From Henricia sp. BOLD:AAB3569 (Eukaryota > Echinodermata > Asteroidea > Spinulosida > Echinasteridae), in assembly GCA_037783545.1 (NCBI GenBank), contig JBBELK010000923.1, forward strand, positions 62,001 to 126,000: a stretch of 64,000 bases of DNA, given 5' to 3'. The notes beneath the pieces were generated by a model. The model was not told where the DNA came from, did not search any database, and saw only the letters and a list, made by a program, of their open reading frames with translations. Both the position numbers and the translations under genes were made by a program. Every line of letters begins with the position of its first letter. Position 1 is the stretch's first letter. This document shows positions 1-40,502 of this stretch, piece after piece.

Positions 1-4
1 TTTT

Positions 5-6000: not shown

Positions 6001-6515
6001 TCAAAGTTTAGGAAAAAAAGGGGTTGGGGCTTCCTGGATGCTCCCGCAACCTGTTGCTGTCTGTACACACCTATTTGGTGTACTCCTGATTCGTGCGCAT
6101 GCTCAGTACTTCGGACTGTCGTAGATACGGCCCAGTTTGGGACGGGATTTTGGTCAAAGTGTGGTCCAAACGTTGGCAAATTTGGAGGTCGAAAAATTTT
6201 CCGACGAACTTCAAATTTTGCATGCTCCTAACACTCTATATTGCGCACTTGTCCTGAAAAATTGACAGACTTTCGCCGGGAAATTGCAGAGAAATTTCAA
6301 AGTTTAGGAAAAAAAGGGGTTGGGGCTTTCTGGATGCTCCCGCAACCTGTGGCTGTCTGTACACACCTCTTTGGTGTACTCCTGATTCGTGCGCATGCTC
6401 AGTACTTCGGACTGTCGTAGATACGGCCCAGTTTGGGACGGGATTTTGGTCAAAGTGTGGTCCAAACGTCGGCAAATTTGGAGGTCGAACAATTTTCCGA
6501 CGAACTTCAAATTTT
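5..6515 (+). repeat. 11-monomer higher-order repeat, two copies (5-3259 and 3260-6515)
   Basis: Twenty-two SINE-free monomers form two tandem 11-mers of 3255 and 3256 bp; the first is one base short because of an A deletion near 866. Diagnostic variants recur at this spacing: GACAGATTTTCG in monomer 1 (51 and 3306), AAATGTTGC ends in monomers 2 and 4, CCTATTTGG in monomer 7 (1927 and 5183), GGTTGTGGC in monomer 8, CGTTGGC in monomer 9, and CCTGAAAA with CTTTCTGG in monomer 11 (2997 and 6253). The copies are not identical: monomers 5, 6, 7 and 10 carry private changes, such as TTCAGAC in monomer 6 of copy 1 only. The duplication is therefore older than some of the later ones in this window. 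Confidence 0.88.
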
Positions 6516-6527
6516 GCATGCTCCTAA

Positions 6528-6812
6528 TGTTGTTGTTGTTGTATATTTTATGGCATCTTCGGCAACTAAGGCCCTTTATGCCATCAACTATACGGTTTTA
6601 GCTTTAACTATACTATATTATCAACTTGAGATGACGAAGAAGGAGTTGCAGTTTTAGAAGTGGGAGGAAAAACCCCAGAGAAATGCCCCAGGGGAAAACC
6701 CACGCGGTCAAGTAGGGACTGCAAACCCAATCCACATACACGCCCCGGATTCGAACCCGGGACCCCAGAGGTGAAAGGCGAGGAAAGAACCCGTACGCCA
6801 ACCCGACCGCCC
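6528..6812 (-). mobile_element. tRNA-derived SINE, minus copy 1
   Basis: This is a 285-bp non-coding retroelement; its 5' end is at 6812 and its tail at 6528. On the element strand it begins GGGCGGTCGGG and has a tRNA-like head with a perfect B box (GGTTCGAATCC, complement at 6747-6757). A GC-rich body contains a GACCGCGTGGG segment. An AT-rich 3' part contains a 7-bp inverted repeat (6550-6556 with 6578-6584), and the tail is about five ACA units with no poly(A). A perfect 12-bp direct repeat, GCATGCTCCTAA, flanks it at 6516-6527 and 6813-6824, which is the hallmark of target-primed insertion. Pol III transcription and LINE-supplied reverse transcription are inferred from SINE biology; no reading frame is involved. 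The private change is GGAAAAACCCC in the body where most copies have GGAAAACCCCC. The exact SINE family is not recognised. Confidence 0.9.
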
Positions 6813-7416
6813 GCATGCTCCTAACACTCTATATTGCGCACTTGTCCTAAAAAATTGACAGACTTTCGCCGGGAAATTGCAGAGAAATTTCAAAGTTTAG
6901 GAAAAAAAGGGGTTGGGGCTTCCTGGATGCTCCCGCAACCTGTGGCTGTCTGTACACACCTCTTTGGTGTACTCCTGATTCGTGCGCATGCTCAGTACTT
7001 CGGACTGTTGTAGATACGGCCCAGTTTGGGACGGGATTTTGGTCAAAGTGTGGTCCAAACGTTGGCAAATTTGGAGGTCGAAAAATTTTCCGACGAACTT
7101 CAAATTTTGCATGCTCCTAACACTCTATATTGCGCACTTGTCCTAAAAAATTGACAGACTTTCGCCGGGAAATTGCAGAGAAATTTCAAAGTTTAGGAAA
7201 AAAAGGGGTTGGGGCTTCCTGGATGCTCCCGCAACCTGTGGCTGTCTGTACACACCTCTTTGGTGTTCTCCTGATTCGTGCGCATGCTCAGTACTTCGGA
7301 CTGTCGTAGATACGGCCCAGTTTGGGACGGGATTTTGGTCAAAGTGTGGTCCAAACGTCGGCAAATTTGGAGGTCGAACAATTTTCCGACGAACTTCAAA
7401 TTTTGCATGCTCCTAA

Positions 7417-7701
7417 TGTTGTTGTTGTTGTATATTTTATGGCATCTTCGGCAACTAAGGCCCTTTATGCCATCAACTATACGGTTTTAGCTTTAACTAT
7501 ACTATATTATCAACTTGAGATGACGAAGAAGGAGTTGCAGTTTTAGAAGTGGGAGGAAAACCCCCAGAGAAATGCCCCAGGGGAAAACCCACGCGGTCAA
7601 GTAGGGACTGCAAACCCAATCCACATACACGCCCCGGATTCGAACCCGGGACCCCAGAGGTGAAAGGCGAGGAAAGAACCCGTACGCCAACCCGACCGCC
7701 C
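7417..7701 (-). mobile_element. tRNA-derived SINE, minus copy 2
   Basis: It has the same 285-bp structure and insertion point as copy 1, 889 bp downstream of it. The 12-bp duplications are at 7405-7416 and 7702-7713, and the B-box complement is at 7636-7646. It shows the majority body sequence GGAAAACCCCCAG. The satellite monomer to its left carries GGTGTTCTCC near 7262 in place of GGTGTACTCC, a private change. Confidence 0.88.
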
Positions 7702-8897
7702 GCATGCTCCTAACACTCTATATTGCGCACTTGTCCTAAAAAATTGACAGACTTTCGCCGGGAAATTGCAGAGAAATTTCAAAGTTTAGGAAAAAAAGGG
7801 GTTGGGGCTTCCTGGATGCTCCCGCAACCTGTGGCTGTCTGTACACACCTCTTTGGTGTACTCCTGATTCGTGCGCATGCTCAGTACTTCGGACTGTCGT
7901 AGATACGGCCCAGTTTGGGACGGGATTTTGGTCAAAGTGTGGTCCAAACGTTGGCAAATTTGGAGGTCGAAACATTTTCCGACGAACTTCAAATTTTGCA
8001 TGCTCCTAACACTCTATATTGCGCACTTGTCCTAACAAATTGACAGACTTTCGCCGGGAAATTGCAGAGAAATTTAAAAGTTTAGGAAAAAAAGGGGTTG
8101 GGGCTTCCTGGATGCTCCCGCAACCTGTGGCTGTCTGTACACACCTCTTTGGTGTACTCCTGATTCGTGCGCATGCTCAGTACTTCGGACTGTCGTAGAT
8201 ACGGCCCAGTTTGGGACGGGATTTTGGTCAAAGTGTGGTCCAAACGTCGGCAAATTTGGAGGTCGAAAAAATTTCCGACGAACTTCCAATTTTGCATGCT
8301 CCTAACACTCTATATTGCGCACTTGTCCTAAAAAATTGACAGACTTTCGCCTGGAAATTGCAGAGAAATTTCAAAGTTTAGGAAAAAAAGGGGTTGGGGC
8401 TTCCTGGATGCTCCCGCAACCTGTGGCTGTCTGTACACACCTCTTTGGTGTACTCCTGATTCGTGCGCATGCTCAGTACTTCGGACTGTCGTAGATACGG
8501 CCCAGTTTGGGACGGGATTTTGGTCAAAGTGTGGTCCAAACGTCGGCAAATTTGGAGGTCGAAAAATTTTCCGACGAACTTCAAATTTTGCATGCTCCTA
8601 ACACTCTATATTGCGCACTTGTCCTAAAAAATTGACAGACTTTCGCCGGGAAATTGCAGAGAAATTTCAAAGTTTAGGAAAAAAAGGGGTTGGGGCTTCC
8701 TGGATGCTCCCGCAACCTGTGGCTGTCTGTACACACCTCTTTGGTGTACTCCTGATTCGTGCGCATGCTCAGTACTTCGGACTGTCGTAGATACGGCCCA
8801 GTTTGGGACGGGATTTTGGTCAAAGTGTGGTCCAAACGTCGGCAAATTTGGAGGTCGAACAATTTTCCGACGAACTTCAAATTTTGCATGCTCCTAA

Positions 8898-9182
8898 TGT
8901 TGTTGTTGTTGTATATTTTATGGCATCTTCGGCAACTAAGGCCCTTTATGCCATCAACTATACGGTTTTAGCTTTAACTATACTATATTATCAACTTGAG
9001 ATGACGAAGAAGGAGTTGCAGTTTTAGAAGTGGGAGGAAAACCCCCAGAGAAATGCCCCAGGGAAAAACCCACGCGGTCAAGTAGGGACTGCAAACCCAA
9101 TCCACATACACGCCCCGGATTCGAACCCGGGACCCCAGAGGTGAAAGGCGAGGAAAGAACCCGTACGCCAACCCGACCGCCC
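8898..9182 (-). mobile_element. tRNA-derived SINE, minus copy 3
   Basis: This 285-bp element is at the standard insertion point with 12-bp duplications at 8886-8897 and 9183-9194; the B-box complement is at 9117-9127. It has CCCCAGGGAAAAACCC near 9056, shared only with copy 12 (20379-20663), so these two are closest relatives. The monomer on its right carries CTCACTACTTC, also as in copy 12. Confidence 0.88.
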
Positions 9183-10070
9183 GCATGCTCCTAACACTCT
9201 ATATTGCGCACTTGTCCTAAAAAATTGACAGACTTTCGCCGGGAAATTGCAGAGAAATTTCAAAGTTTAGGAAAAAAAGGGGTTGGGGCTTCCTGGATGC
9301 TCCCGCAACCTGTGGCTGTCTGTACACACCTCTTTGGTGTACTCCTGATTCGTGCGCATGCTCACTACTTCGGACTGTCGTAGATACGGCCCAGTTTGGG
9401 ACGGGATTTTGGTCAAAGTGTGGTCCAAACGTCGGCAAATTTGGAGGTCGAAAAATTTTCCGGCGAACTTCAAATTTTGCATGCTCCTAACACTCTATAT
9501 TGCGCACTTGTCCTAAAAAATTGACAGACTTTCGCCGGGAAATTGCAGAGAAATTTCAAAGTTTAGGAAAAAAAGGGGTTGGGGCTTCCTGGATGCTCCC
9601 GCAACCTGTGGCTGTCTGTACACACCTCTTTGGTGTACTCCTGATTCGTGCGCATGCTCAGTACTTCGGACTGTCGTAGATACGGCCCAGTTTGGGACGG
9701 GATTTTGGTCAAATTGTGTTCCAAACGTCGGCAAAATTGGAGGTCGAAAAATTTTCCGACGAACTTCCAATTTTGCATGCTCCTAACACTCTATATTGCG
9801 CACTTGTCCTAAAAAATTGACAGACTTTCGCCTGGAAATTGCAGAGAAATTTCAAAGTTTAGGAAAAAAAGGGGTTGGGGCTTCCTGGATGCTCCCGCAA
9901 CCTGTGGCTGTCTGTACACACCTCTTTGGTGTACTCCTGATTCGTGCGCATGCTCAGTACTTCGGACTGTCGTAGATACGGCCCAGTTTGGGACGGGATT
10001 TTTGTCAAAGTGTGGTCCAAACGTCGGCAAATTTGGAGGTCGAAAAATTTTCCGACGAACTTCAAATTTT

Positions 10071-10292
10071 GCATGCTCCTAACACTCTATATTGCGCACT
10101 TGTCCTAAAAAATTGACAGACTTTCGCCGGGAAATTGCAGAGAAATTTCAAAGTTTAGGAAAAAAAGGGGTTGGGGCTTCCTGGATGCTCCCGCAACCTG
10201 TGGCTGTCTGTACACACCTCTTTGGTGTACTCCTGATTCGTGCGCATGCTCAGTACTTCGGACTGTCGTAGATACGGCGAACTTCAAATTTT
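10071..10292 (+). repeat. Truncated satellite monomer (222 bp, 74-bp deletion)
   Basis: This monomer follows the consensus up to GATACGGC (ending 10278), then jumps directly to GAACTTCAAATTTT. It has lost 74 bp that include the CGGGATTTTGG segment and the whole near-palindrome. The junction shows at most one base of microhomology, so end-joining or replication slippage is more likely than exchange between monomers. It is the shortest monomer in the window. Confidence 0.93.
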
Positions 10293-11193
10293 GCATGCTC
10301 CTAACACTCTATATTGCGCACTTGTCCTAAAAAATTGACGGACTTTCGCCGGGAAATTGCAGAGAAATTTCAAAGTTTAGGAAAAAAAGGGGTTGGGGCT
10401 TCCTGGATGCTCCCGCAACCTGTGGCTGTCTGTACACACCTCTTTGGTGTACTCCTGATTCGTGCGCATGTTCAGTACTTCGGACTGTCGTAGATACGGC
10501 CCAGTTTGGGACGGGATTTTGGTCAAAGTGTGGTCCAAACATTGGCAAATTTGGAGGTCGAAAAATTTTCCGACGAACTTCAAATTTTGCATGCTCCTAA
10601 CACTCTATATTGCGCACTTGTCCTAAAAAATTGACAGACTTTCGCCGGGAAATTGCAGAGAAATTTCAAAGTTTAGGAAAAAAAGGGGTTGGGGCTTCCT
10701 GGATGCTCCCGCAACCTGTGGCTGTCTGTACACACCTCCTTGGTGTACTCCTGATTCGTGCGCATGCTCAGTACTTCGGACTGTCGTAGATACGGCCCAG
10801 TTTGGGACGGGATTTTGGTCAAAGTGTGGTCCAAACGTCGGCTAATTTGGAGGTCGACAAATTTTCCGACGAACTTCAAATTTTGCATGCTCCTAACACT
10901 CTATATTTCGCACTTGTCCTAAAAAATTGACAGACTTTCGCCGGGAAATTGCAGAGAAATTTCAAAGTTTAGGAAAAAAAAGGGGTTGGGGCTTCCTGGA
11001 TGCTCCCGCAACCTGTGGCTGTCTGTACACACCTCTTTGGTGTACTCCTGATTCGTGCGCATGCTCAGTACTTCGGACTGTCGTAGATACGGCCCAGTTT
11101 GGGACGGGATTTTGGTCAAAGTGTGGTCCAAACGTCGGCAAATTTGGAGGTCGAACAATTTTCCGACGAACTTCAAATTTTGCATGCTCCTAA

Positions 11194-11478
11194 TGTTGTT
11201 GTTGTTGTATATTTTATGGCATCTTCGGCAACTAAGGCCCTTTATGCCATCAACTATACGGTTTTAGCTTTAACTATACTATATTATCAACTTGAGATGA
11301 CGAAGAAGGAGTTGCAGTTTTAGAAGTCGGAGGAAAACCCCCAGAGAAATGCCCCAGGGGAAAACCCACGCGGTCAAGTAGGGACTGCAAACCCAATCCA
11401 CATACACGCCCCGGATTCGAACCCGGGACCCCAGAGGTGAAAGGCGAGGAAAGAACCCGTACGCCAACCCGACCGCCC
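11194..11478 (-). mobile_element. tRNA-derived SINE, minus copy 4
   Basis: This 285-bp element has 12-bp duplications at 11182-11193 and 11479-11490 and a B-box complement at 11413-11423. It carries GAAGTCGGAGG in the body (near 11325) where most copies read GAAGTGGGAGG. The allele is shared with copies 6 and 8 and marks them as one amplification lineage. The monomer to its left has an A8 tract (near 10974) instead of A7. Confidence 0.88.
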
Positions 11479-11786
11479 GCATGCTCCTAACACTCTATAT
11501 TGCGCACTTGTCCTAAAAAATTGACAGACTTTCGCCGGGAAATTGCAGAGAAATTTCAAAGTTTAGGAAAAAAAGGGGTTGGGGCTTACTGGATGCTCCC
11601 GCAACCTGTGGCTGTCTGTACACACCTCTTTGGTGTACTCCTGATTCGTGCGCATGCTCAGTACTTCGGACTGTCGTAGATACGGCCCAGTTTGGGACGG
11701 GATTTTGGTCAAAGTGTGGTCCAAACGTCGGCAAATTTGGAGGTCGAACAATTTTCCGACGAACTTCAAATTTTGCATGCTCCTAA

Positions 11787-12071
11787 TGTTGTTGTTGTTG
11801 TATATTTTATGGCATCTTCGGCAACTAAGGCCCTTTATGCCATCAACTATACGGTTTTAGCTTTAACTATACTATATTATCAACTTGAAATGACGAAGAA
11901 GGAGTTGCAGTTTTAGAAGTGGGAGGAAAACCCCCAGAGAAATGCCCCAGGGGAAAACCCACGCGGTCAAGTAGGGACTGCAAACCCAATCCACATACAC
12001 GCCCCGGATTCGAACCCGGGACCCCAGAGGTGAAAGGCGAGGAAAGAACCCGTACGCCAACCCGACCGCCC
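11787..12071 (-). mobile_element. tRNA-derived SINE, minus copy 5
   Basis: This 285-bp element lies exactly 593 bp from copy 4, so a single monomer separates the two SINEs. The 12-bp duplications are at 11775-11786 and 12072-12083 and the B-box complement is at 12006-12016. It has CTTGAAATGACG (near 11884) for CTTGAGATGACG, an allele shared with copies 10 and 11. The CTCACTACTTC monomer follows on its right. Confidence 0.88.
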
Positions 12072-12971
12072 GCATGCTCCTAACACTCTATATTGCGCAC
12101 TTGTCCTAAAAAATTGACAGACTTTCGCCGGGAAATTGCAGAGAAATTTCAAAGTTTAGGAAAAAAAGGGGTTGGGGCTTCCTGGATGCTCCCGCAACCT
12201 GTGGCTGTCTGTACACACCTCTTTGGTGTACTCCTGATTCGTGCGCATGCTCACTACTTCGGACTGTCGTAGATACGGCCCAGTTTGGGACGGGATTTTG
12301 GTCAAAGTGTGGTCCAAACGTCGGCAAATTTGGAGGTCGAAAAATTTTCCGACGAACTTCAAATTTTGCATGCTCCTAACACTCTATATTGCGCACTTGT
12401 CCTAAAAAATTGACAGACTTTCGCCGGGAAATTGCAGAGAAATTTAAAAGTTTAGGAAAAAAAGGGGTTGGGGCTTCCTGGATGCTCCCGCAACCTGTGG
12501 CTGTCTGTACACACCTCTTTGGTGTACTCCTGATTCGTGCGCATGCTCAGTACTTCGGACTGTCGTAGATACGGCCCAGTTTTGGACGGGATTTTGGTCA
12601 AAGTGTGGTCCAAACGTCGGCAAATTTGGAGGTCGAAAAAATTTCCGACGAACTTCAAATTTTGCATGCTCCTAACACTCTATATTGCGCACTTGTCCTA
12701 AAAAATTGACAGACTTTCGCCGGGAAATTGCAGAGAAATTTCAAAGTTTAGGAAAAAAAGGGGTTGGGGCTTCCTGGATGCTCCCGCAACCTGTGGCTGT
12801 CTGTACACACCTCTTTGGTGTACTCCTGATTCGTGCGCATGCTCAGTACTTCGGACTGTCGTAGATACGGCCCAGTTTGGGACGGGATTTTGGTCAAAGT
12901 GTGGTCCAAACGTCGGCAAATTTGGAGGTCGAACAATTTTCCGACGAACTTCAAATTTTGCATGCTCCTAA

Positions 12972-13256
12972 TGTTGTTGTTGTTGTATATTTTATGGCAT
13001 CTTCGGCAACTAAGGCCCTTTATGCCATCAACTATACGGTTTTAGCTTTAACTATACTATATTATCAACTTGAGATGACGAAGAAGGAGTTGCAGTTTTA
13101 GAAGTCGGAGGAAAACCCCCAGAGAAATGCCCCAGGGGAAAACCCACGCGGTCAAGTAGGGACTGCAAACCCAATCCACATACACGCCCCGGATTCGAAC
13201 CCGGGACCCCAGAGGTGAAAGGCGAGGAAAGAACCCGTACGCCAACCCGACCGCCC
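12972..13256 (-). mobile_element. tRNA-derived SINE, minus copy 6
   Basis: This 285-bp element has 12-bp duplications at 12960-12971 and 13257-13268 and a B-box complement at 13191-13201. It carries the GAAGTCGGAGG allele of copies 4 and 8. It is the first SINE of the left 1482-bp composite unit. Confidence 0.88.
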
Positions 13257-13860
13257 GCATGCTCCTAACACTCTATATTGCGCACTTGTCCTAAAAAATT
13301 GACAGACTTTCGCCGGGAAATTGCAGAGAAATTTCAAAGTTTAGGAAAAAAAGGGGTTGGGGTTTCCTGGATGCTCCCGCAACCTGTGGCTGTCTGTACA
13401 CACCTCTTTGGTGTACTCCTGATTCGTGCGCATGCTCAGTACTTCGGACTGTCGTAGATACGGCCCAGTTTGGGACGGGATTTTGGTCAAAGTGTGGTCC
13501 AAACGTTGGCAAATTTGGAGGTCGAAACATTTTCCGACGAACTTCAAATTTTGCATGCTCCTAACACTCTATATTGCGCACTTGTCCTAAAAAATTGACA
13601 GACTTTCGCCGGGAAATTGCAGAGAAATTTCAAAGTTTAGGAAAAAAAGGGGTTGGGGCTTACTGGATGCTCCCGCAACCTGTGGCTGTCTGTACACACC
13701 TCTTTGGTGTACTCCTGATTCGTGCGCATGCTCAGTACTTCGGACTGTCGTAGATACGGCCCAGTTTGGGACGGGATTTTGGTCAAAGTGTGGTCCAAAC
13801 GTCGGCAAATTTGGAGGTCGAACAATTTTCCGACGAACTTCAAATTTTGCATGCTCCTAA

Positions 13861-14145
13861 TGTTGTTGTTGTTGTATATTTTATGGCCTCTTTTGCAACT
13901 AAGGCCATTTATGCCATCAACTATACGGTTTTAGCTTTAACTATACTATATTATCAACTTGAGATGACGAAGAAGGAGTTGCAGTTTTAGAAGTGGGAGG
14001 AAAACCCCCAGAGAAATGCCCCAGGGGAAAACCCACGCGGTCAAGTAGGGACTGCAAACCCAATCCACATACACGCCCCGGATTCGAACCCGGGACCCCA
14101 GAGGTGAAAGGCGAGGAAAGAACCCGTACGCCAACCCGACCGCCC
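13861..14145 (-). mobile_element. tRNA-derived SINE, minus copy 7 (variant 3' domain)
   Basis: This 285-bp element has 12-bp duplications at 13849-13860 and 14146-14157 and a B-box complement at 14080-14090. Four substitutions cluster in the 3' domain (near 13886-13910): it reads TGGCCTCTTTTGC and GGCCATTTATG where other copies read TGGCATCTTCGGC and GGCCCTTTATG. One of them breaks one arm of the 3' inverted repeat. The clustering could reflect gene conversion from an unseen relative. The same haplotype is in copy 9, copied by the 1482-bp duplication. Confidence 0.88.
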
Positions 14146-14453
14146 GCATGCTCCTAACACTCTATATTGCGCACTTGTCCTAAAAAATTGACAGACTTTC
14201 GCCGGGAAATTGCAGAGAAATTTCAAAGTTTAGGAAAAAAAGGGGTTGGGGCTTCCTGGATGCTCCCGCAACCTGTGGCTGTCTGTACACACCTCTTTGG
14301 TGTACTCCTGATTCGTGCGCATGCTCAGTACTTCGGACTGTCGTAGATACGGCCCAGTTTGGGACGGGATTTTGGTCAAAGTGTGGTCCAAACGTCGGCA
14401 AATTTGGAGGTCGAACAATTTTCCGACGAACTTCAAATTTTGCATGCTCCTAA

Positions 14454-14738
14454 TGTTGTTGTTGTTGTATATTTTATGGCATCTTCGGCAACTAAGGCCC
14501 TTTATGCCATCAACTATACGGTTTTAGCTTTAACTATACTATATTATCAACTTGAGATGACGAAGAAGGAGTTGCAGTTTTAGAAGTCGGAGGAAAACCC
14601 CCAGAGAAATGCCCCAGGGGAAAACCCACGCGGTCAAGTAGGGACTGCAAACCCAATCCACATACACGCCCCGGATTCGAACCCGGGACCCCAGAGGTGA
14701 AAGGCGAGGAAAGAACCCGTACGCCAACCCGACCGCCC
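14454..14738 (-). mobile_element. tRNA-derived SINE, minus copy 8
   Basis: This 285-bp element has 12-bp duplications at 14442-14453 and 14739-14750 and a B-box complement at 14673-14683. It lies 1482 bp from copy 6 with the same GAAGTCGGAGG allele, and is the first SINE of the right composite unit. Confidence 0.88.
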
Positions 14739-15342
14739 GCATGCTCCTAACACTCTATATTGCGCACTTGTCCTAAAAAATTGACAGACTTTCGCCGGGA
14801 AATTGCAGAGAAATTTCAAAGTTTAGGAAAAAAAGGGGTTGGGGTTTCCTGGATGCTCCCGCAACCTGTGGCTGTCTGTACACACCTCTTTGGTGTACTC
14901 CTGATTCGTGCGCATGCTCAGTACTTCGGACTGTCGTAGATACGGCCCAGTTTGGGACGGGATTTTGGTCAAAGTGTGGTCCAAACGTTGGCAAATTTGG
15001 AGGTCGAAACATTTTCCGACGAACTTCAAATTTTGCATGCTCCTAACACTCTATATTGCGCACTTGTCCTAAAAAATTGACAGACTTTCGCCGGGAAATT
15101 GCAGAGAAATTTCAAAGTTTAGGAAAAAAAGGGGTTGGGGCTTACTGGATGCTCCCGCAACCTGTGGCTGTCTGTACACACCTCTTTGGTGTACTCCTGA
15201 TTCGTGCGCATGCTCAGTACTTCGGACTGTCGTAGATACGGCCCAGTTTGGGACGGGATTTTGGTCAAAGTGTGGTCCAAACGTCGGCAAATTTGGAGGT
15301 CGAACAATTTTCCGACGAACTTCAAATTTTGCATGCTCCTAA

Positions 15343-15627
15343 TGTTGTTGTTGTTGTATATTTTATGGCCTCTTTTGCAACTAAGGCCATTTATGCCATC
15401 AACTATACGGTTTTAGCTTTAACTATACTATATTATCAACTTGAGATGACGAAGAAGGAGTTGCAGTTTTAGAAGTGGGAGGAAAACCCCCAGAGAAATG
15501 CCCCAGGGGAAAACCCACGCGGTCAAGTAGGGACTGCAAACCCAATCCACATACACGCCCCGGATTCGAACCCGGGACCCCAGAGGTGAAAGGCGAGGAA
15601 AGAACCCGTACGCCAACCCGACCGCCC
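15343..15627 (-). mobile_element. tRNA-derived SINE, minus copy 9 (variant 3' domain)
   Basis: This 285-bp element has 12-bp duplications at 15331-15342 and 15628-15639 and a B-box complement at 15562-15572. It carries the same four-substitution 3' haplotype as copy 7, from which it differs at no position I could see. Confidence 0.88.
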
Positions 15628-15935
15628 GCATGCTCCTAACACTCTATATTGCGCACTTGTCCTAAAAAATTGACAGACTTTCGCCGGGAAATTGCAGAGA
15701 AATTTCAAAGTTTAGGAAAAAAAGGGGTTGGGGCTTCCTGGATGCTCCCGCAACCTGTGGCTGTCTGTACACACCTCTTTGGTGTACTCCTGATTCGTGC
15801 GCATGCTCAGTACTTCGGACTGTCGTAGATACGGCCCAGTTTGGGACGGGATTTTGGTCAAAGTGTGGTCCAAACGTCGGCAAATTTGGAGGTCGAACAA
15901 TTTTCCGACGAACTTCAAATTTTGCATGCTCCTAA

Positions 15936-16220
15936 TGTTGTTGTTGTTGTATATTTTATGGCATCTTCGGCAACTAAGGCCCTTTATGCCATCAACTATA
16001 CGGTTTTAGCTTTAACTATACTATATTATCAACTTGAAATGACGAAGAAGGAGTTGCAGTTTTAGAAGTGGGAGGAAAACCCCCAGAGAAATGCCCCAGG
16101 GGAAAACCCACGCGGTCAAGTAGGGACTGCAAACCCAATCCACATACACGCCCCGGATTCGAACCCGGGACCCCAGAGGTGAAAGGCGAGGAAAGAACCC
16201 GTACGCCAACCCGACCGCCC
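15936..16220 (-). mobile_element. tRNA-derived SINE, minus copy 10
   Basis: This 285-bp element has 12-bp duplications at 15924-15935 and 16221-16232 and a B-box complement at 16155-16165. It has the CTTGAAATGACG allele shared with copies 5 and 11. The monomer on its right carries GAGACATTTC, an A6 tract and CTCACTACTTC, a combination repeated 888 bp later next to copy 11. Confidence 0.88.
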
Positions 16221-16823
16221 GCATGCTCCTAACACTCTATATTGCGCACTTGTCCTAAAAAATTGACAGACTTTCGCCGGGAAATTGCAGAGACATTTCA
16301 AAGTTTAGGAAAAAAGGGGTTGGGGCTTCCTGGATGCTCCCGCAACCTGTGGCTGTCTGTACACACCTCTTTGGTGTACTCCTGATTCGTGCGCATGCTC
16401 ACTACTTCGGACTGTCGTAGATACGGCCCAGTTTGGGACGGGATTTTGGTCAAAGTGTGGTCCAAACGTCGGCAAATTTGGAGGTCGAAAAATTTTCCGA
16501 CGAACTTCAAATTTTGCATGCTCCTAACACTCTATATTGCGCACTTGTCCTAAAAAATTGACAGACTTTCGCCGGGAAATTGCAGAGAAATTTCAAAGTT
16601 TAGGAAAAAAAGGGGTTGGGGCTTCCTGGATGCTCCCGCAACCTGTGGCTGTCTGTACACACCTCTTTGGTGTACTCCTGATTCGTGCGCATGCTCAGTA
16701 CTTCGGACTGTCGTAGATACGGCCCAGTTTGGGACGGGATTTTGGTCAAAGTGTGGTCCAAACGTCGGCAAATTTGGAGGTCGAACAATTTTCCGACGAA
16801 CTTCAAATTTTGCATGCTCCTAA

Positions 16824-17108
16824 TGTTGTTGTTGTTGTATATTTTATGGCATCTTCGGCAACTAAGGCCCTTTATGCCATCAACTATACGGTTTTAGCTT
16901 TAACTATACTATATTATCAACTTGAAATGACGAAGAAGGAGTTGCAGTTTTAGAAGTGGGAGGAAAACCCCCAGAGAAATGCCCCAGGGGAAAACCCACG
17001 CGGTCAAGTAGGGACTGCAAACCCAATCCACATACACGCCCCGGATTCGAACCCGGGACCCCAGAGGTGAAAGGCGAGGAAAGAACCCGTACCCCAACCC
17101 GACCGCCC
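16824..17108 (-). mobile_element. tRNA-derived SINE, minus copy 11
   Basis: This 285-bp element has 12-bp duplications at 16812-16823 and 17109-17120 and a B-box complement at 17043-17053. It lies 888 bp from copy 10 with the same flanking monomers, so both come from one tandem duplication. A private substitution gives CGTACCCCAACC (near 17088) for CGTACGCCAACC in the tRNA-like head. Confidence 0.88.
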
Positions 17109-17995
17109 GCATGCTCCTAACACTCTATATTGCGCACTTGTCCTAAAAAATTGACAGACTTTCGCCGGGAAATTGCAGAGACATTTCAAAGTTTAGGAAA
17201 AAAGGGGTTGGGGCTTCCTGGATGCTCCCGCAACCTGTGGCTGTCTGTACACACCTCTTTGGTGTACTCCTGATTCGTGCGCATGCTCACTACTTCGGAC
17301 TGTCGTAGATACGGCCCAGTTTGGGACGGGATTTTGGTCAAAGTGTGGTCCAAACGTCGGCAAATTTGGAGGTCGAAAAATTTTCCGACGAACTTCAAAT
17401 TTTGCATGCTCCTAACACTCTATATTGCGCACTTGTCCTAAAAAATTGACAGACTTTCGCCGGGAAATTGCAGAGAAATTTAAAAGTTTAGGAAAAAAAG
17501 GGGTTGGGGCTTCCTGGATGCTCCCGCAACCTGTGGCTGTCTGTACACACCTCTTTGGTGTACTCCTGATTCGTGCGCATGCTCAGTACTTCGGACTGTC
17601 GTAGATACGGCCCAGTTTGGGACGGGATTTTGGTCAAAGTGTGGTCCAAACGTCGGCAAATTTGGAGGTCGAAAAAATTTCCGACGAACTTCCAATTTTG
17701 CATGCTCCTAACACTCTATATTGCGCACTTGTCCTAAAAAATGGACAGACTTTCGCCTGGAAATTGCAGAGAAATTTCAAAGTTTAGGAAAAAAAGGGGT
17801 TGGGGCTTCCTGGATGCTCCCGCAACCTGTGGCTGTCTGTACACACCTCTTTGGTGTACTCCTGATTCGTGCGCATGCTCAGTACTTCGGACTGTCGTAG
17901 ATACGGCCCAGTTTGGGACGGGATTTTGGTCAAAGTGTGGTCCAAACGTCGGCAAATTTGGAGGTCGAAAAATTTTCCGACGAACTTCAAATTTT

Positions 17996-19774
17996 GCATG
18001 CTCCTAACACTCTATATTGCGCACTTGTCCTAACAAATTGACAGACTTTCGCCGGGAAATTGCAGAGAAATTTCAAAGTTTAGGAAAAAAAGGGGTTGGG
18101 GCTTCCTGGATGCTCCCGCAACCTGTGGCTGTCTGTACACACCTCTTTGGTGTACTCCTGATTCGTGCGCATGCTCAGTACTTCGGACTGTCGTAGATAC
18201 GGCCCAGTTTGGGACGGGATTTTGGTCAAAGTGTGGTCCAAACGTCGGCAAATTTGGAGGTCGAAAAATTTTCCGACGAACTTCAAATTTTGCATGCTCC
18301 TAACACTCTATATTGCGCACTTGTCCTAAAAAAATTGACAAACTTTCGCCGGGAAATTGCAGAGAAATTTCAAAGTTTAGGAAAAAAAGGGGTTGGGGCT
18401 TCCTGGATGCTCCCGCAACCTGTGGCTGTCTGTACACACCTCTTTGGTGTACTCCTGATTCGTGCGCATGCTCAGTACTTCGGACTGTCGTAGATACGGC
18501 CCAGTTTGGGACGGGATTTTGGTCAAAGTGTGGTCCAAACGTCGGCAAATTTGGAGGTCGAAAAATTTTCCGACGAACTTCAAATTTTGCATGCTCCTAA
18601 CACTCTATATTGCGCACTTGTCCTAACAAATTGACAGACTTTCGCCGGGAAATTGCAGAGAAATTTCAAAGTTTAGGAAAAAAAGGGGTTGGGGCTTCCT
18701 GGATGCTCCCGCAACCTGTGGCTGTCTGTACACACCTCTTTGGTGTACTCCTGATTCGTGCGCATGCTCAGTACTTCGGACTGTCGTAGATACGGCCCAG
18801 TTTGGGACGGGATTTTGGTCAAAGTGTGGTCCAAACGTCGGCAAATTTGGAGGTCGAAAAATTTTCCGACGAACTTCAAATTTTGCATGCTCCTAACACT
18901 CTATATTGCGCACTTGTCCTAAAAAAATTGACAAACTTTCGCCGGGAAATTGCAGAGAAATTTCAAAGTTTAGGAAAAAAAGGGGTTGGGGCTTCCTGGA
19001 TGCTCCCGCAACCTGTGGCTGTCTGTACACACCTCTTTGGTGTACTCCTGATTCGTGCGCATGCTCAGTACTTCGGACTGTCGTAGATACGGCCCAGTTT
19101 GGGACGGGATTTTGGTCAAAGTGTGGTCCAAACGTCGGCAAATTTGGAGGTCGAAAAATTTTCCGACGAACTTCAAATTTTGCATGCTCCTAACACTCTA
19201 TATTGCGCACTTGTCCTAAAATATTGACAGACTTTCGCCGGGAAATTGCAGAGAAATTTCAAAGTTTAGGAAAAAAAGGGGTTGGGGCTTCCTGGATGCT
19301 CCCGCAACCTGTGGCTGTCTGTACACACCTCTTTGGTGTACTCCTGATTCGTGCGCATGCTCAGTACTTCGGACTGTCGTAGATACGGCCCAGTTTGGGA
19401 CGGGATTTTGGTCAAAGTGTGGTCCAAACGTCGGCAAATTTGGAGGTCGAAAAATTTTCCGACGAACTTCAAATTTTGCATGCTCCTAACACTCTATATT
19501 GCGCACTTGTCCTAAAAAAATTGACAAACTTTCGCCGGGAAATTGCAGAGAAATTTCAAAGTTTAGGAAAAAAAGGGGTTGGGGCTTCCTGGATGCTCCC
19601 GCAACCTGTGGCTGTCTGTACACACCTCTTTGGTGTACTCCTGATTCGTGCGCATGCTCAGTACTTCGGACTGTCGTAGATACGGCCCAGTTTGGGACGG
19701 GATTTTGGTCAAAGTGTGGTCCAAACGTCGGCAAATTTGGAGGTCGAAAAATTTTCCGACGAACTTCAAATTTT
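17996..19774 (+). repeat. 593-bp dimeric higher-order repeat, three units
   Basis: Units start at 17996, 18589 and 19182. The second monomer of each is 297 bp and carries CCTAAAAAAATTGACAAAC (18326, 18919, 19512). The first monomer carries CCTAACAAATTG in units 1 and 2 but CCTAAAATATTG in unit 3 (19216). The next monomer (19775) also has CCTAAAATATTG. The period is exactly 593 bp. There is no SINE in this stretch. Confidence 0.9.
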
Positions 19775-20378
19775 GCATGCTCCTAACACTCTATATTGCG
19801 CACTTGTCCTAAAATATTGACAGACTTTCGCCGGGAAATTGCAGAGAAATTTCAAAGTTTAGGAAAAAAAGGGGTTGGGGCTTCCTGGATGCTCCCGCAA
19901 CCTGTGGCTGTCTGTACACACCTCTTTGGTGTACTCCTGATTCGTGCGCATGCTCAGTACTTCGGACTGTCGTAGATACGGCCCAGTTTGGGACGGGATT
20001 TTGGTCAAAGTGTGGTCCAAACGTCGGCAAATTTGGAGGTCGAAAAATTTTCCGACGAACTTCAAATTTTGCATGCTCCTAACACTCTATATTGCGCACT
20101 TGTCCTAAAAAATTGACAGACTTTCGCCGGGAAATTGCAGAGAAATTTCAAAGTTTAGGAAAAAAAGGGGTTGGGGCTTCCTGGATGCTCCCGCAACCTG
20201 TGGCTGTCTGTACACACCTCTTTGGTGTACTCCTGATTCGTGCGCATGCTCAGTACTTCGGACTGTCGTAGATACGGCCCAGTTTGGGACGGGATTTTGG
20301 TCAAAGTGTGGTCCAAACGTCGGCAAATTTGGAGGTCGAACAATTTTCCGACGAACTTCAAATTTTGCATGCTCCTAA

Positions 20379-20663
20379 TGTTGTTGTTGTTGTATATTTT
20401 ATGGCATCTTCGGCAACTAAGGCCCTTTATGCCATCAACTATACGGTTTTAGCTTTAACTATACTATATTATCAACTTGAGATGACGAAGAAGGAGTTGC
20501 AGTTATAGAAGTGGGAGGAAAACCCCCAGAGAAATGCCCCAGGGAAAAACCCACGCGGTCAAGTAGGGACTGCAAACCCAATCCACATACACGCCCCGGA
20601 TTCGAACCCGGGACCCCAGAGGTGAAAGGCTAGGAAAGAACCCGTACGCCAACCCGACCGCCC
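20379..20663 (-). mobile_element. tRNA-derived SINE, minus copy 12
   Basis: This 285-bp element is the last minus-strand copy, about 3.3 kb from its nearest neighbour on the left. The 12-bp duplications are at 20367-20378 and 20664-20675 and the B-box complement is at 20598-20608. It shares CCCCAGGGAAAAACCC with copy 3. Private changes are GTTATAGAAG (near 20502) for GTTTTAGAAG and AAGGCTAGG (near 20625) for AAGGCGAGG. Confidence 0.88.
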
Positions 20664-21551
20664 GCATGCTCCTAACACTCTATATTGCGCACTTGTCCTA
20701 AAAAATTGACAGACTTTCGCCGGGAAATTGCAGAGAAATTTCAAAGTTTAGGAAAAAAAGGGGTTGGGGCTTCCTGGATGCTCCCGCAACCTGTGGCTGT
20801 CTGTACACACCTCTTTGGTGTACTCCTGATTCGTGCGCATGCTCACTACTTCGGACTGTCGTAGATACGGCCCAGTTTGGGACGGGATTTTGGTCAAAGT
20901 GTGGTCCAAACGTCGGCAAATTTGGAGGTCGAAAAATTTTGCGACGAACTTCAAATTTTTCATGCTCCTAACACTCTATATTGCGCACTTGTCCTAAAAA
21001 ATTGACAGACTTTCGCCGGGAAATTGCAGAGAAATTTCAAAGTTTAGGAAAAAAAGGGGTTGGGGCTTCCTGGATGCTCCCGCAACCTGTGGCTGTCTGT
21101 ACACACCTCTTTGGTGTACTCCTGATTCGTGCGCATGCTCAGTACTTCGGACTGTCGTAGATACGGCCCAGTTTGGGACGGGATTTTGGTCAAAGTGTGG
21201 TCCAAACGTCGGCAAATTTGGAGGTCGAAAAATTTTCCGACGAACTTCAAATTTTGCATGCTCCTAACACTCTATATTGCGCACTTGTCCTAAAAAATTG
21301 ACAGACTTTCGCCGGGAAATTGCAGAGAAATTTCAAAGTTTAGGAAAAAAAGGGGTTGGGGCTTCCTGGATGCTCCCGCAACCTGTGGCTGTCTGTACAC
21401 ACCTCTTTGGTGTACTCCTGATTCGTGCGCATGCTCAGTACTTCGGACTGTCGTAGATACGGCCCAGTTTGGGACGGGATTTTGGTCAAAGTGTGGTCCA
21501 AACGTCGGCAAATTTGGAGGTCGAAAAATTTTCCGACGAACTTCAAATTTT
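20664..21551 (+). repeat. Three ordinary satellite monomers between minus and plus SINEs
   Basis: Three monomers of standard length separate the last minus SINE from the first unit carrying a plus SINE. The first carries CTCACTACTTC (near 20842) and TTTTGCGACG; the second starts with TTTTCATGC (20957-20965), a G-to-T change in the GCATGC landmark. Nothing else is visible. Confidence 0.95.
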
Positions 21552-21738
21552 GCATGCTCCTAACACTCTATATTGCGCACTTGTCCTAAAAAATTGACAG
21601 ACTTTCGCCGGGAAATTGCAGAGAAATTTCAAAGTTTAGGAAAAAAAGGGGTTGGGGCTTCCTGGATGCTCCCGCAACCTGTGGCTGTATGTACACACCT
21701 CTTTGATGTACTCCTGATTCGTGCGCATGCTCAGTACT

Positions 21739-22026
21739 GGGGCGGTCGGGTTGGCGTACGAGTTCTTTCCTCGCCTTTCACCTCTGGGGTCCCGGGTTCG
21801 AATCCGGGGCGTGTATGTGGATTGGGTTTGCAGTCCCTACTTGACCGCGTGGGTTTTCCCCTGGGGCATTTCTCTGGGGGTTTTCCTCCCACTTCTAAAA
21901 CTGCAACTCCTTCTTCGTCATCTCAAGTTGATAATATAGTATAGTTAAAGCTAAAACCGTATAGTTGATGGCATAAAGGGCCTTAGTTGCCGAAGATGCC
22001 ATAAAATATACAACAACAACAACAAC
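21739..22026 (+). mobile_element. tRNA-derived SINE, plus copy A (second insertion site)
   Basis: This 288-bp element lies in the opposite orientation to the twelve others. Its 5' end GGGGCGGTCGGG is at 21739 and its (CAA/ACA)n tail ends at 22026. A perfect 12-bp duplication, ATGCTCAGTACT, flanks it at 21727-21738 and 22027-22038; a further C on each side makes it possibly 13. The host position is monomer base 176-187, not 1-12 as for the minus copies, so this is a separate retrotransposition. The body is nearly identical to the minus majority; the visible differences are one extra 5' G, CGTACGAGTTC for CGTACGGGTTC, and a slightly longer tail. The tRNA-like head spans about 21739-21812, with TTTCACC placed like a tRNA-Glu anticodon loop, though its stem pairs poorly. 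Confidence 0.9.
21795..21805 (+). promoter_or_regulatory. Pol III B box in SINE plus copy A
   Basis: GGTTCGAATCC matches the B-box consensus GGTTCGANTCC exactly, about 57 bp from the element start, as expected for a type 2 internal promoter. The five-base arms on either side of the TTCGAAT loop pair at four of five positions. The upstream A box is weak: only a degenerate match lies around TCGGGTTGGCG (21745-21755). Transcription competence is therefore uncertain. Confidence 0.75.
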
Positions 22027-23518
22027 ATGCTCAGTACTTCGGACTGTCGTAGATACGGCCCAGTTTGGGACGGGATTTTGGTCAAAGTGTGGTCCAAACG
22101 TCGGCAAATTTGGAGGTCGAAAAAATTTTCGACGAACTTCAAATTTTGCATGCTCCTAACACTCTATATTGCGCACTTGTCCTAAAAAATTGACAGACTT
22201 TCGCCGGGAAATTGCAGAGAAATTTCAAAGCTTAGGAAAAAAAGGGGTTGGGGCTTCCTGGATGCTCCCGCAACCTGTGGCTGTCTGTACACACCTCTTT
22301 GGTGTACTCCTGATTCGTGCGCATGCTCAGTACTTCGGACTGTCGTAGATACGGCCCAGTTTGGGACGGGATTTTGGTCAAAGTGTGGTCCAAACGTCGG
22401 CAAATTTGGAGGTCGAAAAATGTTCCGACGAACTTCAAATTTTGCATGCTCCTAACACTCTATATTGCGCACTTGTCCTACAAAAATGACAGACTTTCGC
22501 CGGGAAATTGCAGAGAAATTTCAAAGTTTAGGAAAAAAAGGGGTTGGGGCTTCCTGGATGCTCCCGCAACCTGTGGCTGTCTGTACACACCTCTTTGGTG
22601 TACTCCTGATTCGTGCGCATGCTCAGTACTTCGGACTGTCGTAGATACGGCCCAGTTTGGGACGGGATTTTGGTCAAAGTGTGGTCCAAACGTCGGCAAA
22701 TTTGGAGGTCGAAAAATTTTCCGACGAACTTCAAATTTTGCATGCTCCTAACACTCTATATTGCGCACTTGTCCTAAAAAATTGACAGACTTTCGCCGGG
22801 AAATTGCAGAGAAATTTCAAAGTTTAGGAAAAAAAGGGGTTGGGGCTTCCTGGATGCTCCCGCAACCTGTGGCTGTCTGTACACACCTCTTTGGTGTACT
22901 CCTGATTCGTGCGCATGCTCAGTACTTCGGACTGTCGTAGATACGGCCCAGTTTGGGACGGGATTTTGGTCAAAGTGTGGTCCAAACGTCGGCAAATTTG
23001 GAGGTCGAAAAATTTTCCGACGAACTTCAAATTTTGCATGCTCCTAACACTCTATATTGCGCACTTGTCCTAAAAAATTGACAGACTTTCGCCGGGAAAT
23101 TGCAGAGAAATTTCAAAGTTTAGGAAAAAAAGGGGTTGGGGCTTCCTGGATGCTCCCGCAACCTGTGGCTGTCTGTACACACCTCTTTGGTGTACTCCTG
23201 ATTCGTGCGCATGCTCATTACTTCGGACTGTCGTAGATACGGCCCAGTTTGGGACGGGATTTTGGTCAAAGTGTGGTCCAAACGTCGGCAAATTTGGAGG
23301 TCGAAAAATTTTCCGACGAACTTCAAATTTTGCATGCTCCTAACACTCTATATTGCGCACTTGTCCTAAAAAATTGACAGACTTTCGCCGGGAAATTGCA
23401 GAGAAATTTCAAAGTTTAGGAAAAAAAGGGGTTGGGGCTTCCTGGATGCTCCCGCAACCTGTGGCTGTATGTACACACCTCTTTGATGTACTCCTGATTC
23501 GTGCGCATGCTCAGTACT

Positions 23519-23806
23519 GGGGCGGTCGGGTTGGCGTACGAGTTCTTTCCTCGCCTTTCACCTCTGGGGTCCCGGGTTCGAATCCGGGGCGTGTATGTGG
23601 ATTGGGTTTGCAGTCCCTACTTGACCGCGTGGGTTTTCCCCTGGGGCATTTCTCTGGGGGTTTTCCTCCCACTTCTAAAACTGCAACTCCTTCTTCGTCA
23701 TCTCAAGTTGATAATATAGTATAGTTAAAGCTAAAACCGTATAGTTGATGGCATAAAGGGCCTTAGTTGCCGAAGATGCCATAAAATATACAACAACAAC
23801 AACAAC
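23519..23806 (+). mobile_element. tRNA-derived SINE, plus copy B
   Basis: This 288-bp copy lies 1780 bp from plus copy A, with the same 12-bp duplications (23507-23518 and 23807-23818), the same host-monomer variants on both sides and no difference I can see. It is a satellite-driven duplicate of copy A, not a third insertion. No SINE occurs in the 40 kb to its right. Confidence 0.9.
23575..23585 (+). promoter_or_regulatory. Pol III B box in SINE plus copy B
   Basis: This is the same exact GGTTCGAATCC match as in copy A, at the equivalent position. Confidence 0.72.
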
Positions 23807-24223
23807 ATGCTCAGTACTTCGGACTGTCGTAGATACGGCCCAGTTTGGGACGGGATTTTGGTCAAAGTGTGGTCCAAACGTCGGCAAATTTGGAGGTCGA
23901 AAAAATTTTCGACGAACTTCAAATTTTGCATGCTCCTAACACTCTATATTGCGCACTTGTCCTAAAAAATTGACAGACTTTCGCCGGGAAATTGCAGAGA
24001 AATTTCAAAGCTTAGGAAAAAAAGGGGTTGGGGCTTCCTGGATGCTCCCGCAACCTGTGGCTGTCTGTACACACCTCTTTGGTGTACTCCTGATTCGTGC
24101 GCATGCTCAGTACTTCGGACTGTCGTAGATACGGCCCAGTTTGGGACGGGATTTTGGTCAAAGTGTGGTCCAAACGTCGGCAAATTTGGAGGTCGAAAAA
24201 TGTTCCGACGAACTTCAAATTTT

Positions 24224-30200: not shown

Positions 30201-31026
30201 AATTGCAGAGAAATTTCAAAGTTTAGGAAAAAAAGGGGTTGGGGCTTCCTGGATGCTCCCGCAACCTGTGGCTGTCTGTACACACCTCTTTGGTGTACTC
30301 CTGATTCGTGCGCATGCTCAGTACTTCGGACTGTCGTAGATACGGCCCAGTTTGGGACGGGATTTTGGTCAAAGTGTGGTCCAAACGTCGGCAAATTTGG
30401 AGGTCGAAAAATTTTCCAACGAACTTCAAATTTTGCATGCTCCTAACACTCTATATTGCGCACTTGTCCTAAAAAATTGACAGACTTTCGCCGGGAAATT
30501 GCAGAGAAATTTCAAAGTTTAGGAAAAAAAGGGGTTGGGGCTTCCTGGATGCTCCCGCAACCTGTGGCTGTCTGTACACACCTCTTTGGTGTACTCCTGA
30601 TTCGTGCGCATGCTCAGTACTTCGGACTGTCGTAGATACGGCCCAGTTTGGGACGGGATTTTGGTCAAAGTGTGGTCCAAACGTCGGCAAATTTGGAGGT
30701 CGAAAAATTTTCCGACGAACTTCAAATTTTGCATGCTCCTAACACTCTATATTGCGCACTTGTCCTAAAAAATTGACAGACTTTCGCCGGGAAATTTCAG
30801 AGAAATTTCAAAGTTTAGGAAAAAAAGGGGTTGGGGCTTCCTGGATGCTCCCGCAACCCGTGGCTGTCTGTACACACCTCTTTGGTGTACTCCTGATTCG
30901 TGCGCATGCTCAGTACTTCGGACTGTCGTAGATACGGCCCAGTTTGGGACGGGATTTTGGTCAAAGTGTGGTCCAAACGTCGGCAAATTTGGAGGTCGAA
31001 AAATTTTCCGACGAACTTCAAATTTT
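24224..31026 (+). repeat. Trimeric satellite units of about 887 bp, SINE-free
   Basis: Monomers with an A6 tract plus the linked changes TGGAGGCTCCCGAAACC recur at 24224, 25111, 27478 and 28365. The spacing is 887 bp within each pair, that is three monomers less one base. They alternate with monomers carrying CCTAACAAATTG or CCTAAACAATTG; the latter are often linked to TTTTCCAACGAAC near the end (24815, 28069, 30142). A monomer at 29252 combines CCTAAACAATTG, A6 and CCCGTAACC. Between the trimers lie near-consensus monomers. No insertion and no gene is visible. Confidence 0.85.
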
Positions 31027-39300: not shown

Positions 39301-40502
39301 GACGAACTTCAAATTTTGCATGCTCCTAACACTCTATATTGCGCACTTGTCCTAAAAAAATTGACAGACTTTCGCCGGGAAATTGCAGATAAATTTAAAA
39401 GTTTAGGAAAAAAAGGGGTTGGGGCTTCCTGGATGCTCCCGCAACCTGTGGCTGTCTGTACACACCTCTTTGGTGTACTCCTGATTCGTGCGCATGCTCA
39501 GTACTTCGGACTGTCGTAGATACGGCCCAGTTTGGGACGGGATTTTGGTCAAAGTGTGGTCCAAACGTCGGCAAATTTGGAGGTCGAAAAATTTTCCGAC
39601 GAACTTCAAATTTTGCATGCTCCTAACACTCTATATTGCGCACTTGTCCTAAAAAATTGACAGACTTTCGCCGGGAAATTGCAGAGAAATTTCAAAGTTT
39701 AGGAAAAAAAGGGGTTGGGGCTTCCTGGATGCTCCCGCAACCTGTGGCTGTCTGTACACACCTCTTTGGTGTACTCCTGATTCGTGCGCATGCTCAGTAC
39801 TTCGGACTGTCGTAGATACGGCCCAGTTTGGGACCGGATTTTGGTCAAAGTGTGGTCCAAACGTCGGCAAATTTGGAGGTCGAAAAATTTTCCGACGAAC
39901 TTCAAATTTTGCATGCTCCTAACACTCTATATTGCGCACTTGTCCTAAAAAATTGACAGACTTTCGCCGGGAAATTGCAGATAAATTTAAAAGTTTAGGA
40001 AAAAAAGGGGTTGGGGCTTCCTGGATGCTCCCGCAACCTGTGGCTGTCTGTACACACCTCTTTGGTGTACTCCTGATTCGTGCGCATGCTCAGTACTTCG
40101 GACTGTCGTAGATACGGCCCAGTTTGGGACGGGATTTTGGTCAAAGTGTGGTCCAAACGTCGGCAAATTTGGAGGTCGAAAAATTTTCCGACGAACTTCA
40201 AATTTTGCATGCTCCTAACACTCTATATTGCGCACTTGTCCTAAAAAATTGACAGACTTTCGCCGGGAAATTGCAGAGAAATTTCAAAGTTTAGGAAAAA
40301 AAGGGGTTGGGGCTTCCTGGATGCTCCCGAAACCTGTGGCTGTCTGTACACACCTCTTTGGTGTACTCCTGATTCGTGCGCATGCTCAGTACTTCGGACT
40401 GTCGTAGATACGGCCCAGTTTGGGACGGGATTTTGGTCAAAGTGTGGTCCAAACGTCGGCAAATTTGGAGGTCGAAAAATTTTCCCACGAACTTCAAATT
40501 TT

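Follow-up and report, generated by a model that had tools for sequence, protein, structure and literature searches.

A SINE that probably inserted repeatedly at one base of a 296-bp satellite in Henricia, with local amplification of some insertions

Do transposable elements that share an insertion point and a target duplication within a satellite array descend from one insertion? Such sharing is commonly taken as proof of a single origin, both in SINE (short interspersed element) phylogeny and in the tracing of satellite expansions. The question is raised by a stretch of 64,000 nucleotides from Henricia sp. BOLD:AAB3569, hereafter the window, which spans positions 62,001 to 126,000 of contig JBBELK010000923.1 (C923:62001-126000). 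A 296-bp satellite fills the window and carries 14 full-length copies of one 285-bp SINE (98.2-100% identity to copy 1 by BLAST), 12 on the minus strand and 2 on the plus strand. The original prediction had read the minus copies as one SINE captured by the satellite and amplified with it, and had stated that independent insertions would not produce such a pattern. We examined these copies and their relatives in the genome assembly (740,731,340 bases in 2,104 contigs); of the 137,989 bases of C923, bases 1-136000 are covered by the figures given for that contig. The results make it very probable that the SINE has retrotransposed repeatedly into one satellite base and that some of its insertions were then amplified locally.

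The minus and plus copies occupy two different bases of the satellite monomer and have different duplications, which indicates two separate insertions, lineages A and B, rather than one. The features are given below in window coordinates, with copies 1 to 12 placed by BLAST and boundary reading and their marker substitutions in parentheses.

1..64000, plus strand, 296-bp satellite array (Tandem Repeats Finder, period-296 rows jointly spanning the window)
6484..6496, plus strand, linked allele GTCGAACAATTTT in the monomer left of copy 1, the same before all 12 minus copies
6516..6527, plus strand, target duplication GCATGCTCCTAA, left copy, lineage A (copy 1 as example)
6528..6812, minus strand, SINE copy 1, lineage A
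6813..6824, plus strand, target duplication GCATGCTCCTAA, right copy, lineage A (copy 1 as example)
7417..7701, minus strand, SINE copy 2, lineage A
8898..9182, minus strand, SINE copy 3, lineage A (167A)
11194..11478, minus strand, SINE copy 4, lineage A (135C)
11787..12071, minus strand, SINE copy 5, lineage A (103A)
12972..13256, minus strand, SINE copy 6, lineage A (135C)
13861..14145, minus strand, SINE copy 7, lineage A (28C, 33T, 34T, 47A)
14454..14738, minus strand, SINE copy 8, lineage A (135C)
15343..15627, minus strand, SINE copy 9, lineage A (28C, 33T, 34T, 47A)
15936..16220, minus strand, SINE copy 10, lineage A (103A)
16824..17108, minus strand, SINE copy 11, lineage A (103A, 270C)
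20379..20663, minus strand, SINE copy 12, lineage A (167A)
21726..21738, plus strand, target duplication CATGCTCAGTACT, left copy, lineage B
21739..22024, plus strand, SINE copy 13, lineage B (BLAST start 21740), located at the hot spot described below, with one extra 5' G
22026..22038, plus strand, target duplication CATGCTCAGTACT, right copy, lineage B
23519..23804, plus strand, SINE copy 14, lineage B (BLAST start 23520), copy 13 duplicated with its flanks

The plus-strand site, G|CATGCTCAGT, is where insertion has recurred. The junction of the SINE tail with this site, CAACAACAACATGCTCAGT, occurs exactly at 374 places in the genome, and its reversed pattern at none. Among the 100 tail-junction places listed, which fall on 31 contigs, 34 loci on 28 contigs were read, and satellite was present on the 3' side in 34/34. 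The head junction of lineage B was found at 102 places with up to two mismatches; among the 100 listed, most carried AGTCCT rather than AGTACT and a few AGTCAT. When the SINE tail was joined instead to another base of the monomer, 0 places were found with up to one mismatch. A second control base gave 3 places with up to one mismatch (2 exact), and a third gave 3 with up to two mismatches (1 exact).

We read 50 hot-spot loci, 16 chosen by the head junction and 34 by the tail junction. At 43 of them the SINE is bounded by a perfect duplication of 12-16 bp that matches the local satellite variant, and these 43 fall into 20 classes of duplication length, extra bases and SINE start. Truncated SINEs with intact duplications start at nt 5, 89 and 94. 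The 34 tail-selected loci show 20 raw classes of 5' junction, two of which (C278a and C589) are probably recombinant or deleted; once 4 loci are set aside and the rest normalised to the local target, 14 classes are obtained. The duplications at C421 and C500a are ambiguous by about one base owing to overlap with the SINE start. Seven loci do not follow the perfect-duplication rule (C58, C278a, C589, C766, C611, C816 and C1166). At C766 the SINE is present only from nt 34, and the sequence before it resembles by eye what precedes the SINE at a dispersed locus, L130. At C58 it is present only from nt 120, and the 245 bases read on the left match neither SINE nor satellite. Ignoring point mutations, the floor is about 8 events, which rises to 10 when C58 and C766 are counted. 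This floor combines the junction lengths of full-length copies (3, 4, 5, 6 and 8 bases after GCGCATGCTCAG) with the three truncated starts.

The relationship between SINEs and flanks was compared at 43 loci usable on both sides, namely 40 of the 50 plus C923, C939 and C1257. The two sets of distances are uncorrelated (Mantel r = -0.008, p = 0.51). The mean distance is 2.0% for SINEs and 6.8% for flanks (maximum 15.6%), and SINEs that differ by 0-1 bases occur in flanks up to 14.5% apart. For the two large satellite groups, SINE distance is 2.2% and 2.0% within groups and 2.3% between them. The variant 49C is present in the TCATTCG, TCCTTCG and TACTTCG groups and absent from TCCATCG (one locus); it was also seen in 10 loci of a set of 20 dispersed ones. 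The site thus shows what is expected of an insertion hot spot, with independent insertions into one target that differ in their ends and in their SINE variants. We conclude that this base has been hit repeatedly and independently in satellite subfamilies up to about 14% apart. The statement that independent insertions would not share a junction therefore fails genome-wide, as the plus-strand site was hit independently in many arrays. The finding named in the original prediction as fatal to it, the same junction in unrelated monomers with discordant SINEs and flanks, is what we observed at the plus-strand site, not in lineage A.

Junctions at the hot spot have also been rearranged. The locus C278:454719-455227 (L089; C278a above) has its 3' end at the hot-spot junction and shares its 5' junction with a different insertion (C323:211680-212180, L134; junction at C323:211757). 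This suggests that it arose by recombination between two SINE copies within the satellite.

Lineage B is one product of the hot spot. Its two copies in the window share the duplication CATGCTCAGTACT plus one extra G, lie a 1,780-bp step apart and have private variants in common across three successive monomers. These plus copies are a second insertion in the array that was subsequently duplicated. The exact B junction word occurs four times in the genome, twice in C923 and once each in C939 and C1257. Two satellite subfamilies meet at a sharp border inside one array in C939 (C939:1-10000, L040); the border lies about 5 kb into the reversed piece.

Lineage A has a different history. All 12 minus copies have identical boundaries and the same 12-bp target duplication GCATGCTCCTAA. 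Of the 18 occurrences of the word GTCGAACAATTTT in the window, 12 directly precede a minus SINE, so that all 12 copies have it. This allele, 38 bp away from the insertion, accompanies 15/15 lineage A copies of C923 and is found as the same word in 12/319 empty monomers, a linkage that excludes chance (Fisher p = 4e-19). Scored by aligned column 259 alone, the C is present in 29/357 empty monomers of C923. The minus copies in C923 are one insertion amplified within the array, and the shared point, duplication and linked variant are those of a transposable element captured and amplified by a satellite, two copies in C619 excepted. Here the original prediction was borne out, on the shared junction and allele as well as on co-amplification with the satellite. 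The genome search that it called for returned the exact lineage A junction at 17 places, 15 in C923 (three of them left of the window) and 2 in C619; no further ones were found in the genome when two mismatches were allowed.

The linkage is not uniform around the lineage A copies. To their right, variants at 171, 185 and 239 bp are present in 6/15, 3/15 and 6/15 copies, respectively; linkage thus weakens further from the insertion, a pattern that the reshuffling of monomers by recombination would produce. The SINE sub-lineages proposed earlier are real by their shared substitutions: copies 4/6/8 share 135C, 5/10/11 share 103A, 3/12 share 167A and 7/9 share four substitutions. These groups, which comprise 10 of the 12 minus copies in the window, were also said to track the satellite duplications around them, and this held for the right flanks and not for the left. 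In the right monomer there were 1.88 differences within groups and 3.41 between them (p = 0.017), and the second right monomer was also closer within groups (p = 0.026), while the left monomers showed no significant within-group similarity (p = 0.23 and 0.14). Over all 15 C923 copies, Mantel comparisons of the SINE with each of six flanking monomers yielded no significant correlation (p 0.08-0.83). The agreement of SINEs and flanks is therefore weak for lineage A and appears only in the grouped right flanks.

The term higher-order unit, used previously for the amplified segment, is too strong. The satellite monomer covers C923 from 1,188 to 136,000 with the exception of inserts (monomer BLAST). 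Compared pairwise, 376 C923 monomers diverge by 1.1% on average, a level that stays flat across lags 1-30, so no array-wide higher-order periodicity was found over these lags. The only spacing pattern is local, 1,482 bp (889+593) between SINE copies 6 and 11.

Two rearranged copies lie left of the window. One (C923:59994-60278) is a lineage A copy in which the left flank has been rejoined at a short TTG match, and the other (C923:60431-60523) is a fragment of 93 bp from the SINE head. The A right junction is preserved in both, and they are likely by-products of illegitimate recombination. Other inserts of C923 have also been multiplied. A 375-bp repeat with an (ATA)n end occurs three times at one identical satellite junction left of the window (C923:3289-3663, 5436-5810 and 7880-8254) and is another insert multiplied with the array. 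Two copies of a 2,027-bp element share one junction (C923:16594-18620 and 20106-22132); judged by eye, the element has terminal inverted repeats of about 39 bp and is probably flanked by an ACTG duplication. A 4.3-kb insert (C923:34318-38655) has inverted-repeat ends by eye, a single copy in the part of C923 that was read, and open reading frames of 160 aa at most. In window 6528-20675, SINE and duplication together measure 297 bp, nearly one monomer, and leave the monomer register almost unchanged. An explanation by this length was set aside because the co-duplicated 375- and 2027-bp inserts differ from it.

The SINE is not confined to the satellite. A 27-mer from it has 3,215 exact occurrences in the genome, compared with 374 hot-spot junctions. 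Of 37 dispersed loci read, 26 have a called duplication, some of them doubtful. The element resembles a tRNA-derived SINE in being short and in having many dispersed copies with their own target duplications. It carries a (CAA)n tail and a box-B-like sequence, GGTTCGAATCC, a candidate part of an internal Pol III promoter, and its GTGGGTTTTCCCC...TTTTCCTCCCAC may resemble the conserved Nin central domain. ARAGORN found no tRNA in the window, and no Rfam family reached the gathering threshold in window 1-30000. The dispersed population sets the element apart from the target-specific retrotransposons of the R2/TRAS type, nearly all copies of which lie in their target. Five dispersed loci with duplications of their own (L045, L057, L063, L127 and L129) are down to 1-2 substitutions from the lineage A sequence, so there is no sign that retrotransposition has ended. 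The claim that unequal exchange has replaced it thus found no support: exchange multiplies the copies within arrays, and retrotransposition founds them. The 27-mer also occurs in same-orientation pairs 296-307 bp apart (C34:10325/10621, C38:1042233/1042532 and C23:975950/976257), which are possible tandem SINEs.

We propose that these arrays arose in two steps. In the first, a young SINE that has a (CAA)n tail and is still dispersing would insert by target-primed reverse transcription, with a strong preference for one position and one orientation in the 296-bp satellite. The complementary strand would be opened at GTGCG|CATGCTCAGT and the second strand cut 12-16 bp downstream, and the exposed ...TG end could pair with the CA of the SINE RNA tail. 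A fixed 3' end combined with a variable 5' end is the hallmark of target-primed reverse transcription in which the position of the first nick is fixed. In the second step, the insertion and its surrounding monomers would be multiplied and reshuffled by local recombination. Lineage A, at its different base, would have grown in this way from one insertion to 15 copies with intact junctions plus two rearranged ones in C923, and lineage B from one hot-spot insertion to two copies. The amplification would presumably occur by unequal exchange rather than by replication slippage or rolling-circle steps, and the base preference would stem from the endonuclease of a partner long interspersed element (LINE).

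Several observations weigh against this account or narrow it. Of the 374 hot-spot places, 34 were read, and for 34 of the 50 loci the choice of locus itself set the 3' position; among the head-selected loci, the 3' junction is at CATGCTCAG in 13/16, so the position is fixed even where it was not selected. The control word with 0 places does not fit the AGTCAT satellite subfamily, and the other two fit the main variants. Some loci are shared by descent across contigs (C247/C530/C569/C649/C699, C25/C199 and C1147/C1794/C1970), and places therefore outnumber insertion events by far. Point mutation, rather than a separate event, could account for the difference between some 5' classes. The TACTTCG group (6 pairs), which includes lineage B of the window, has SINEs that are closer to one another, at 0.74%, than to those of the two large groups, at 1.4-1.5%. 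Since the B copies of the window and C939 have the same 5' class and tail length, lineage B in C923 and C939 may be one insertion, possibly with C1257 included. The two lineage A copies in C619 are without the linked allele, and both lie beside 243T, a variant rare in empty monomers (2/99 in C619, 1/357 in C923), so lineage A may have two origins or may have been exchanged between arrays. The junction and duplication of these two copies equal those in C923 and their tail ends look the same. As 5' class and tail length both match in only 2/547 pairs not obviously related among the 34 tail-selected hot-spot loci, common descent with later flank exchange seems likelier than a second insertion. 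No strong target motif was found across the 37 dispersed loci, with called duplications at 26 and some of these doubtful, so an endonuclease preference is hypothetical. DNA folding at the hot spot revealed no significant structure (z 1.16, -0.91 and -0.18).

What singles out this base can be weighed between two readings. It may be, tentatively, that the SINE and a putative partner LINE are partly target-specific for the satellite, with an endonuclease that recognises GTGCG|CATG. Nested SINEs at C840:40805-41300 (L132) and C1787:37600-38100 (L133), in which a second SINE lies inside the tail end of the first, bear on this. The second SINE is again at GTGCG|CATG, though the bases after CATG are SINE tail and not satellite, which points to recognition of upstream bases; the two nested insertions are probably one event copied. 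A somewhat less likely possibility is that recurrent insertion used a pre-existing nick or accessible gap in the satellite and owed nothing to an endonuclease sequence preference. The lack of a strong motif at dispersed targets fits such a nick, and the reuse of the site before SINE tail at C840 and C1787, probably one event seen twice, argues against it. GCATGC as the sole determinant was rejected, because the monomer's other GCATGCTC gave 0 matches in tail orientation for the satellite variants that fit the word.

The remaining explanations dispense with recurrent insertion. It is improbable that a single capture accounts for all SINE-satellite junctions, through amplification along with the satellite and exchange between arrays and with no new retrotransposition. 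This reading fits lineage A in C923 and the local duplication of B, and several hot-spot families are common to several contigs, with B in C923 and C939 perhaps one event; it is contradicted by a 3' end that is fixed while the 5' end varies or is truncated, by duplications that match each local satellite variant, by different SINE variants in one satellite group and by near-identical SINEs in very different flanks. Slightly less probable still is one old hot-spot insertion that predates the split of the subfamilies, with SINE bodies homogenised by gene conversion from dispersed SINEs. Such a history would account for a common site across subfamilies and for similar SINE bodies, and rearranged junctions do exist (C923:59994, C923:60431 and C278a/C323:211757). 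Conversion of bodies, however, would create neither the 12-16 bp duplications that are perfect in 43/50 loci nor 5'-truncated copies with intact duplications. We consider it very unlikely that the shared junctions are an artefact of repeat contigs that were collapsed or chimeric. Assembly is difficult in satellite arrays and the analysis used assembled contigs, but collapse does not yield contigs that each differ in their private variants, truncations and perfect duplications.

Recurrent insertion followed by amplification means that one genome holds both processes, the local amplification of one insertion and repeated independent insertions at one base. A shared insertion point alone does not prove descent from a single landing; it is the linked flanking allele, not the junction, that separates a single origin from independent insertions. 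The hot spot also supplies countable natural insertions whose target is known, and these could be used to measure second-strand cleavage, 5' truncation and satellite recombination. If the SINE is indeed partly target-specific, it gains a harmless, self-multiplying landing site: retrotransposition would seed it, satellite recombination would multiply the insertions for free, and the dispersed population would maintain mobility.

Target-specific non-long-terminal-repeat (non-LTR) retrotransposons include R2 in ribosomal DNA and TRAS/SART in telomeric repeats, and Utopia is reportedly another, in U2 genes. As in Henricia, they integrate by preference at a single base within a repeat, where the first nick is fixed; the difference is that here a SINE has the preference and is also widely dispersed elsewhere. 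SINE insertion hot spots in a retrovirus-like element are reportedly described, to go by its title, in Cantrell et al. 2001, Genetics 158:769. The bovine 1.711b satellite is reportedly a precedent; none of the papers found in the literature search named it. The literature searched, from which most subscription papers were missing, contained no account of a SINE hot spot confined to a single satellite base, which does not prove that none exists.

Three further systems are also close, as far as the available portions of their sources go. In the higher-order arrays of human alpha-satellite, recent Alu and L1 insertions were duplicated along with the array, and so was Alu in Yq12 (PMC12350169). 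As in Henricia, such insertions tag the expansions of their satellite; they differ in being unique polymorphic insertions, and the accessible part of that account describes no single satellite base hit repeatedly (PMC12350169). CanSINE loci with four and six independent insertions resemble our hot spot in that SINEs inserted independently at overlapping target sites, but they are single loci across cat species, whereas here one base of a tandem satellite was hit within one genome and then amplified (PMC4084570, in part). In the limpet Patella, Nin-SINE and the satellite PcH-Sat are linked, as SINE and satellite are here; PcH-Sat contains part of the SINE, while the Henricia satellite is SINE-free and serves as the landing site (PMC11121367, in part). 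Within the range of these partial sources, the duplication of satellite transposable element insertions and SINE hot spots at single loci are each known, and what may be new is their occurrence together at one satellite base.

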